Positions 20,062 to 52,174 of a stretch of DNA of 64,000 nt are shown piece by piece (positions within the stretch are counted from its first letter, which is position 1; the number at the start of each line of letters is the position of its first letter). A model generated the notes under the pieces. The model saw only the letters and a list, made by a program, of their open reading frames with translations. It searched no databases and was not told the DNA's origin. The position numbers were made by a program, and so were the translations under genes. The stretch comes from Lampris incognitus (Eukaryota; Chordata; Actinopteri; Lampriformes; Lampridae). Where the stretch lies: positions 18,367,463 through 18,431,462 of the forward strand of contig NC_079219.1 of assembly GCF_029633865.1 (NCBI RefSeq). Direction: 5' to 3'.

Positions 20062-20293
20062 TCAGTTGTTTTTGTGACAATCTTGGACCACTTGCGTATG
20101 CTCCATAAGTTTTTTTTCTAGTTTTTCTGCAAGAGCGCTAAGTTGACAAGCCCTCAGCATCTGCGGCAGGCTCTGCAACTGATCCTTTGAGGCTTTGGCC
20201 AGCCAGGCTCTGATATGACCCAGCAGACATCCTCTCCCTTTCGCAGGAATCACCTCACCTAGGAGCCTTCTATTCTCTTTCCTTTTGGTGTAT
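20062..20293 (-). CDS. tnfrsf6b: tnfrsf6b-like exon 5 (C-terminus and stop)
   Basis: Acceptor GTCTCCCTCCACTAG ends at 20294 and the exon starts in phase 2. The 232 nt encode YTKRKENRRLLGEVIPAKGR, an amphipathic LLGHIRAWLAKASKDQL stretch and ACQLSALAEKLEKKLMEH, ending in HKNN and TGA at 20064-20062. The basic, leucine-rich tail matches the C-terminal part of DcR3, which in mammals binds heparan sulfate. Confidence 0.88.
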
Positions 20294-23200
20294 CTAGTGG
20301 AGGGAGACGATAGTTTATGTACACCTGCAGAGTGCAATCATGAATTAAGAGGCGAAGAGACTGTAAAAGAGGACGGGAGGAAAGAGGAGAGAGGAGGGCT
20401 AAAGAGAAAAGAGGGAGGTGGAGAGTCAGAGATGAACGTGGAAGCGTGTAAGATGTACTTGATGTGGCTTCTGGCAGGATGTATCTGAGACTGGCCGCTA
20501 GACCATAATGGCTCACCTGGTGACAAATCTCCTTATTTTCGACACACGTGGCCTGGTAAAGTCAAAGAGGCATGGGACGAATTCTCGGAGGATGTTCATC
20601 TTGTCTGAGGAGAAAAGGAGGAAAACAAAATGAGTTTTGGAATTCCTGCGCGGTGTCTCAACATGGTGCCAGTGTCAGAGGTGTGTACAGGGTGTGAATC
20701 ACACCGGCAGGCACCACCTTTTTAACGTTCCTTTTTTTCTTTTCTTTTTTTGCTGAGGGGGGTTCAACTTCATTTATATTTACTGACCTAAATAAATGCT
20801 CTCCTAACTACCATCCCACTAACACTTTGCAGGTTACCTGTCCATTTTGACAAAGTGAATATTATCGGTGCTGTGAAGGCAATTTGTCTGCCATATTATC
20901 ATATACGATGTTTGCTTACTTTTAATCTTCGCCCATGTATGACCTATCCCACGTTTAACTTTATATTGCTTAGATAGATGCTTAAAGTTAATATGTGGCT
21001 ATGTAGCAGAACGTAGGTGGTGTTATAAAGTGTCTTCTCCATGTGAACAAATAAAGGCCTGTTTTCACTGTTAGCTGACAGCAGAGGAATGGATGAGAAA
21101 CTCACTGAGTGTCACAAAGTCTGTACGCAGTAAGTGGAGAAACAGCCTTGGTGGGATGGGAGCTGGAATATTATATTACACGAGATACTAAGGAGGACAG
21201 CAGACGACTGCCCTATAAGAGAGACTGTACTGTACTGATCAGCATGCACTTAAGTATCTATGCTTTGTGTGCAACACTTGCAAGCATGTAATAAAGTGTG
21301 ATAATACTGCGAAGAATCTTTGTCGCTGAATCCTCTGTGTTTAGGCCCATGTGTACTCTGGTGTAGTACTGCCACGACAGTGCACAATAGCACATTAATT
21401 TTTGGCTGCTTGACCACCCGTATCCTCCCCTGTGTGTGTGTGTGTGTGTGTGTGTGTGTGTGTGTGTGTGTGTGTGTGTGTGTGTGTGTGTGTGTGTGTG
21501 TGTGTGTGGAGCTGAAAAACACACCCAGTTACAGGAGGCATGTGAATCACAGTAAAGAGTGCTGCTCCAAAATCCCAACCCACAGACAGTATGTGTGGCC
21601 AGGAGCATACTGTCCATGTGTTCGTTTTCCCTCTTTTTTTTGGTACACCTTAGGGAAGGCTCCTGCTCAATCCTATCATGACTTTTGGTCTTCACTTGTT
21701 TACTTTCAAAGTTTACCACATTTGCTTAACAGCAAAAAGCAAAACTAGACTGTTGGCATGGTTATTGGAATGTCCCGGTTCGTCCCGTTTGGCCATCTCG
21801 AATCACCGGAAATGTTTTAATTGTTAGTTTACTGCCGTTTCGTCACATTTTAACACATACCCAGCTATATGGCGGGTAAACTCGGCACTAACCATGTGAA
21901 ATACAAAAGCAGGTGGGGTTGAGCTGCTCGAGTATGCCTCAAATCCAGTCTCGAGTCTACATGTCGAAGTCTCGGGTCTCATCTCAAGACTTCACGGCAG
22001 AATGACTTGAACATTTTTGGCCTCAAGGGCCAAAAATCTAAGTAAAGACTGACACTGGAAGACCGGAAGACTTGTGTGAACTGATATGTAAACTTAAAGG
22101 AGTTGGACTTGTCAGCTTAGCGTCTTGGTCCTGAGCTGAGTGGTTTTGACTACGACAGTAGCAAAACAAGAAGGCTGTGTGATCAACAGTTTCAAAGATA
22201 GAGCTAGTAGAAAAGAGACACACCTCCATCTTGCAGCTGCTGACAGGTGCCACACACAGTGTCATGGTACGCGGAGCCTGATAGTAGGGGCCTCTGTCCG
22301 GTGGAGGTGCAGCTGCGGTGTTTAACACACGGCTTCAGCACCGAGGAAGAGTTGGAGAAATAGCCATCTGGACACTCTTCACACACCGTGTTCATCTGAG
22401 ATGTACCTATGAAAGAACGAGTTTTATTTTTGGAGAAAGAACATGGAAAGCCAAAAAAGGGCACAGTTTGTCTCTCGATATCGCCGTCAGATGCAAACAG
22501 GCGTTCAACCGAATTGAAATCCCATCGAACCTGAGACAAATTACGAACCGTTTTGCCTTCCACACAGGAGAGCCATGCATGTGGTACACAAACAGGTAAG
22601 CATAGCACACGGTGACTTCTGCTGCACTTTGTGGAGTTGAGTTTAAAGGCCTACCCAGTGTTTAGAGCTACTGAGGGATGGCACGGGTGATGGATGGCAA
22701 CCGGAAAAACTATCATCACACTGTGCTTATGTAGAGCCGTGAAATAAAAAATAAAGAATAGATAAATGGGCATTATAATAATGTTTTATTTGGGGGGGGC
22801 AATACTTTGATTTGCATATCTAAACAACTCTGGTGGATGTTATTCTCATTTGTTTAAGTAGATAAACCTACACATCTTTAATAAGCCGTTTTACTGCTAA
22901 CATTAAAATATTCGGTAAATGACGGCCTGTGCGTGATGTTTTGGAGCAGTTGCCTGGCCTGAAGAACGTGTTGCCATGTAAGGATGCTCATAGAATGAAG
23001 AGGAAAACAGCGACGAAGAGTTTTTAAACCTACCATTGGTCTTCACCCCGTAGCCACGCCCACATCTGGAGTGTTTGAAACAAATCCCAGCGTTGCTGTA
23101 GTATCCCGGTTTACACCGACAAACCATGTTGTGCCGCGGGGAGCACTCCCTCTCCGCCTCCTCGTCTTCCCCACACAGCAGGTTGCAGTACAGACACTTC

Positions 23201-52141: not shown

Positions 52142-52174
52142 GGCGGGGTTGGATTTGGTTATCCGAGCGCTCAT
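52127..52174 (-). CDS. tnfrsf11b: tnfrsf11b exon 1 (start of signal peptide)
   Basis: The preferred start is 52141: CCCGCCATGA is a good initiation context and gives MKLLL followed by the hydrophobic run of exon 2. An in-frame ATG at 52174 would add MSARITKSNPA ahead of it. Donor GTGAGT starts at 52126, phase 0. The exon is identified by its in-phase join to exon 2 and the CpG-rich surroundings. Confidence 0.75.

Follow-up and report, generated by a model that had tools for sequence, protein, structure and literature searches.

The fish Lampris incognitus carries a complete osteoprotegerin gene (OPG, tnfrsf11b) and, head to tail with it, a complete second gene for a secreted-type TNF receptor. 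This second gene, here called gene B, is probably the fish counterpart of DcR3 (TNFRSF6B), left at the OPG locus by an old tandem duplication, and the place of the human gene would then be the derived one. The reading of the two genes as an ancestral pair is favoured, not proven. Both genes lie in the window, the stretch of 64,000 nucleotides that was analysed (C12:18367463-18431462; positions below count from its first base), taken from an assembly of 1.48 Gb in 537 contigs. Exon-by-exon models place OPG at 52174-26750 and gene B at 24246-20062, both on the minus strand, with 2,442 bp between the stop of OPG and the TATAAA box of gene B. A first-pass annotation of this DNA had described two complete secreted TNF-receptor genes, on the same strand and about 2.4 kb apart, and its coordinates, orientation, spacing, and lengths all proved correct. 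It had also considered that the pair could be an assembly join. This is unlikely because the sequence is free of gaps (no N in 20062-52174, and none in the whole window) and comes from the interior of a contig, C12, of 62,408,622 bases.

All nine introns of the two genes are bounded by GT and AG. OPG, the upstream gene, encodes 418 amino acids in six coding exons separated by five of these introns. Its coding exon 1 (52127..52174, minus strand, as for all features below) was found by reading open reading frames and splice sites, with the ATG at 52174 and a TATA-like box, CATAAG, at 52235. The remaining exons follow from the splice model. Exon 2a (41331..41558), which also matches a CRD HMM, encodes the beginning of the mature chain with CRD1 and the first part of CRD2; exon 2b (39775..39919) encodes the remainder of CRD2 together with CRD3, and exon 3 (30107..30322) encodes CRD4. 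Pfam recognizes the first death-like domain in exon 4 (27728..27952; Death_TNFRSF11B, 3.8e-23) and the second in exon 5 (26750..27144; 1.5e-15), which also holds the C-terminal tail and the stop. Over the whole protein, four stretches match TNFR_c6 and two match Death_TNFRSF11B.

Compared with solved structures, the product of the upstream gene scores 200.5 and 197.0 bits against OPG and 174.5 bits against DcR3, and its CRDs are 53% identical to those of TNFRSF11B (PDB 3urf, 4e4d). The OPG-like CRDs, the two death-like domains, and a neighbourhood shared with ccn3 and dscc1 all identify it as osteoprotegerin, the receptor that holds Rankl. It differs from human OPG, which has five exons and is not known to have an intron at this place, by an extra intron of 1,411 bp within CRD2 (39920..41330), and no intron stands at the equivalent place of gene B. 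A dispersed repeat lies inside this intron, where 129 bp are 93% identical to positions 18634-18762. Directly beside exon 5, the last OPG intron contains a further repeat fragment (27145-27483) resembling the retrotransposons at the ends of the window. The signal peptide of OPG is taken from the family because no 19-residue hydrophobic window in the OPG model exceeds the threshold used for gene B; the model has no membrane segment.

The stretch between the genes (24311..26749) contains ATTAAA motifs at 25898, 25807, 25119, and 24976 and an AATAAA motif at 24939 (first base, minus strand), and it ends at the TATAAA box of gene B (24306..24311), all located by motif scan. Gene B has a coding length of 903 bp for 300 amino acids in five coding exons with four GT-AG introns. 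Coding exon 1 (24244..24246), a predicted model, would consist of the start codon alone. Exon 2 (23034..23430; 317.8-bit self-match) encodes the signal peptide, CRD1, CRD2, and the start of CRD3, and exon 3 (22224..22406) encodes the remaining CRDs, both according to the splice model. Exon 4 (20517..20604), likewise a predicted model, would encode the first part of a tail that Pfam assigns to Death_3, and exon 5 (20062..20293) encodes the rest of this tail, with the stop at 20062. The splice join of the last two exons is supported by the Death_3 match, which spans their junction, and the reading frame would also be kept if exon 4 were skipped.

Four stretches of the gene B protein match TNFR_c6 (2.3e-26), and its tail covers positions 1-105 of the 106 in the Death_3 profile (PF21733) at 2.2e-26, or 1.7e-27 when the tail is searched alone. 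Unlike OPG, gene B contains one Death_3 domain and no match to Death_TNFRSF11B at E<=1. Its sole hydrophobic stretch is N-terminal (19-residue windows starting at 1-4) and it has no membrane segment, so that the product should be secreted. Four CRDs and no membrane segment constitute the secreted type of architecture of human DcR3 (PDB 3k51, 3mhd). Gene B has all 18 cysteines seen in the solved CRDs of human DcR3, and the identity over the CRDs is 49%. The tail includes a very basic stretch of 20 residues, RVSKIRRFVTRYTKRKENRR, with a net charge of +9. Human DcR3 also has 300 amino acids and a basic tail.

The affinity of gene B to DcR3 rests on comparisons of the CRDs. Against solved structures, the protein scores 175.8 bits with DcR3, 154.3 and 152.9 bits with OPG, and 85.9 bits with TNFRSF21. 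With 175.8 bits between gene B and DcR3 and 200.5 bits between the upstream gene and OPG, chance resemblance is out of the question. In CRD identity, DcR3 at 49% is followed by human OPG (44%), mouse OPG (42%), and the neighbouring fish OPG (42%); the structure chains are from human for DcR3 and from human and mouse for OPG. The CRDs of gene B are thus closest to DcR3 among TNF receptors, within the limits of a tree of eight sequences that includes one DcR3 (human), two mammal OPGs, one fish OPG, and DR6 as the outgroup. This tree joins gene B to DcR3 with a support of 97/97 under the mixture model and 92/97 under LG. Without the DR6 outgroup the grouping stays (99/98), and without the fish OPG it is recovered at 80/99, not starred. 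The signal resides in columns 1-84, corresponding to CRD1-2 (93/98); columns 85-167 alone give 44/13. Long branches lead to both gene B and DcR3, a situation in which the tree tool cautions that a grouping may be spurious.

Individual alignment columns point in more than one direction. Eighteen columns show a residue common to gene B and DcR3 and absent from the three OPGs, against which gene B sides with all three OPGs in three columns, with the fish OPG alone in eight, and with the two mammal OPGs alone in ten. DcR3, for its part, agrees with the fish OPG in 12 columns in which gene B and the two mammal OPGs differ from them. The best tree does not recover the three OPGs as a clade, although their monophyly is not rejected (p 0.127), and the tests give no firm rejection of a grouping of gene B with the three OPGs that leaves DcR3 apart (p 0.050 and 0.151). 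The CRD tree is compatible with more than one deep branching order of OPG, DcR3, and gene B.

The first-pass annotation had offered two origins for the pair, an ancestral tandem duplication or a DcR3-like copy of OPG made by this lineage itself, and the tree bears directly on this choice. Under the latter, gene B would be a fish-lineage tandem copy of OPG that lost the second death-like domain and became DcR3-like later, a literal 'opgb' acting on Rankl; we regard this as unlikely. A clade of gene B with fish OPG is rejected in three set-ups, two with DR6 (p-AU 0.0106 and 0.0206, the forced clade costing about 16 log units) and one without it (p-AU 0.0091), although it is not rejected when human DcR3 is left out of the tree (p 0.156). 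A position of the 300-residue protein inside fish osteoprotegerins, which the annotation had named as fatal to its proposal, is accordingly disfavoured against the one fish OPG compared and with human DcR3 in the tree, and it is under these conditions that the ancestral pair gains from the comparison. Gene B is also no nearer to its neighbour (42%) than to mammal OPGs (42-44%), it lacks the CRD2 intron of fish OPG, and its tail belongs to a different family, Death_3 rather than Death_TNFRSF11B. The adjacency itself fits a copy made by fishes, as do data from medaka. Medaka is reported to have two opg genes with shorter C-termini, opgb having a coding length of 881 bp against the 903 bp of gene B, and Opgb protected bone from transgenic Rankl (PMC9992893).

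The tails of the proteins raise a different difficulty for the identification with DcR3. A human DcR3 tail, whose sequence was typed in rather than taken from a record, hits none of the Pfam families at E<=1, and its similarity to the gene B tail does not rise above the level of shuffled sequences (z 0.84; 196 of 1000 shuffles as high). Homology of the two tails is not detected, though a pairwise test is possibly too weak for a fast-changing tail. The same typed-in human tail resembles the first death-like domain of fish OPG (z 4.5, reached in 2 of 1000 shuffles). On this sequence comparison, human DcR3 looks like a shortened OPG, as a tandem origin predicts, and the tail of gene B would be either very diverged or of other descent. 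The mismatch of the tails is the most telling point against the orthology of gene B and DcR3.

That mismatch lends some weight to the proposal that gene B stands for an old third branch next to those of OPG and DcR3, one that was lost in tetrapods, in which case an architecture of four CRDs and one tail domain would have arisen twice. A Death_3 tail unmatched by the tail of human DcR3 is what such a branch could show, and so is the weakly supported deep order of the three lineages, with an OPG clade that is absent from the best tree and yet not rejected (p 0.127). The 97/97 support for gene B with DcR3 and the 18 residues exclusive to the two make this origin improbable.

The genome was searched with both proteins, with scoring limited to the top candidates from an initial pass. 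With gene B as the query, 12 matches at E<=1 were obtained, seven of which are exons of the pair; the best of the other five is DR6 on C18 (34%), and the remaining four are weak (E 0.0088 or more). OPG as the query gave 14 matches, seven again belonging to the pair, and the best of the other seven is again DR6 on C18 (36%). At the sensitivity used, the genome-wide searches turned up no further gene of the OPG or DcR3 type, and both Death_3 matches in the genome are the gene B exons themselves. Two other CRD-bearing genes, on C13 and C22, look like copies of NGFR, which, like the Tc1-like and reverse-transcriptase repeats described below, would fit a teleost genome.

The neighbourhood of the pair corresponds to that of human OPG. 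A CCN gene matching CCN3/NOV structures lies on the same contig, about 235 kb from gene B and 215 kb to the left of the window. It is called ccn3 with two of four matched chains being the only CCN chains found, so that rivals from the CCN family were hardly compared; its residues CIEQTTEW and CEMVKQ fit CCN3. Five exon matches place dscc1 (Dcc1) at C12:17.899-17.902 Mb, which puts it about 0.49 Mb away from gene B; one more match, a weak one, falls on C9. In human 8q24 the order is OPG, CCN3, DSCC1, which makes ccn3 and dscc1 neighbours of human OPG as well. Nearer to the pair, no host gene was recognized elsewhere in the window or within 30 kb past each end (partly N) in a weak search by eye, in which 837 open reading frames were reduced to 520 by a repeat filter and the 60 longest were inspected; colec10 and mal2 were not recognized among these 60.

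Human DcR3 differs from gene B in its location, its gene adjoining RTEL1 at 20q13.33 according to the title of one report (PMC11330336). In Lampris incognitus, rtel1 is found on C2 and gene B on C12. Two matches to ARCH_RTEL1 occur at approximately 10.1095-10.1099 Mb of C2, the better with 27.9 bits, just over the cut-off of 27 and in a frame interrupted by stops, and the second short of that cut-off. Three matches to HHD_RTEL1 lie at 10.086-10.094 Mb, two of them above the cut-off and all on the same strand. The 3' part of rtel1 and about 38 kb beyond it, 60 kb in total (20 kb of mostly gene body and 40 kb further 3'), contain no CRD match at E<=10, and a second DcR3 beside rtel1 was dismissed on this ground. 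As a control, a CRD HMM from which the two fish genes had been left out recovers all five frames with CRDs in the window. With the pair near ccn3 and dscc1 and no CRD match in the 60 kb at rtel1, the DcR3-type gene is placed at the OPG locus and not at the rtel1 locus. The first-pass annotation had proposed tracing the neighbours of both human genes, and the result is divided, with ccn3 and dscc1 linked to the pair and rtel1 on another contig.

The human 8q24 and 20q13 regions are regarded as duplicates of one another, and a descent of DcR3 and OPG from early vertebrate genome duplications, with fish DcR3 moving beside OPG later, would agree with this but is very improbable, as the moving gene would have had to land by chance no more than 2.4 kb from its paralogue and in the same orientation. 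KCNQ, the one marker tried for these duplicate regions, has none of its 18 matches on C12, a result that weighs on neither side. Four of the 28 matches to EXT genes are on C12, near 27.99 Mb.

Comparison of the two genes at the DNA level detects only faint matches, as expected of old copies. The best is 51 bp long with 84% identity and joins intron 1 of both genes, falling within a CA repeat in that of gene B. A match of 81 bp (E 0.09) links the exons encoding CRD1-2. The upstream regions, taken as 2.0 and 2.5 kb, share no DNA better than E 0.62, again as expected of an old duplication. Shared control of a bone and an immune decoy, which the first-pass annotation had thought possible, gains nothing from this lack of significant similarity, and a shared promoter was set aside for the same reason.

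The surrounding DNA also holds pieces of mobile elements and other repeats. Pieces of Tc1/mariner-like transposase frames, named by eye, occupy 5975-6989, 17320-17992, and 31929-32297, and an unbroken Tc1-like transposase frame of 350 amino acids lies in the left flank, its N-terminal part being repeated at 897-1193 of the window. Two broken copies resembling non-LTR retrotransposons, with endonuclease- and reverse-transcriptase-like frames, stand in opposite orientation at the window ends (2241-4900 and 61174-63670). A minisatellite-like tandem repeat at 13557-14081 is open in more than one frame.

Taken as an ancestral pair, the two genes would have the following history. The tandem duplication of a gene for an OPG-type secreted receptor would predate the split between bony fishes and tetrapods. 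One copy would have kept two death-like domains as OPG, and the other, a shorter form in which one tail domain follows the four CRDs, would have become DcR3 and gene B. Lampris incognitus would retain both copies as neighbours. On the way to humans, the DcR3 copy would have come to stand beside RTEL1 either through reciprocal loss after genome duplication or through a move.

The products of both genes are best taken as secreted decoys. An N-terminal signal would direct the gene B protein out of the cell, where the four CRDs, with their 18 cysteines, may capture trimeric ligands of the TNF family before these reach membrane receptors. Human DcR3 binds heparan sulfate through its tail, and the basic stretch RVSKIRRFVTRYTKRKENRR may hold the gene B protein on heparan-sulfate surfaces in a similar manner; a search for a paper on the heparan-sulfate residues of DcR3 found none. 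By family resemblance, the likeliest ligands of gene B would be those of DcR3, namely FasL, LIGHT, and TL1A, as given in a table of one review (PMC6001812).

TNFRSF6B-like genes are already annotated in teleosts and are not new. The gene tnfrsf6b is annotated in Atlantic salmon, where it is induced in heavily infected fish (PMC7656060), and in Nile tilapia (PMC3691878). Among the matches listed in the open-licence literature, neither the adjacency of OPG and DcR3 (titles and starts of abstracts) nor the absence of a DcR3-type gene from the rtel1 locus was found described, the former being weak evidence of absence. The review mentioned above states that among the teleosts and lungfish compared in a cited study an OPG homologue was found in lungfish only (PMC6001812); in contrast, the window contains a complete OPG in a presumed teleost. 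Medaka opgb resembles gene B as a second, shorter teleost 'opg' with a coding sequence of 881 bp, and is a candidate counterpart of it. Faced with transgenic Rankl, medaka Opgb is reported to block osteoclast activity more than osteoclast formation (PMC9992893).

The pair suggests that a bone decoy and an immune decoy began as neighbours, though they reside on different chromosomes in human. It offers a concrete origin for DcR3 that can be checked, where the human map gives no obvious hint of the gene's source among TNF receptors. For fish models of bone it carries a warning, as what is called an 'opg' copy in a teleost may be of the DcR3 type instead of a second osteoprotegerin. Should medaka opgb be the counterpart of gene B, a teleost decoy of the DcR3 type would also act on Rankl. 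A bolder reading, which we hold as possible rather than probable, is that OPG and DcR3 are two halves of one ancient tandem decoy locus that is intact here, and that human DcR3, linked to RTEL1, is a displaced survivor of it. The teleost gene, possibly medaka opgb, would still act on both Rankl and immune ligands, and the two decoys would once have shared their ligands as well as their locus.
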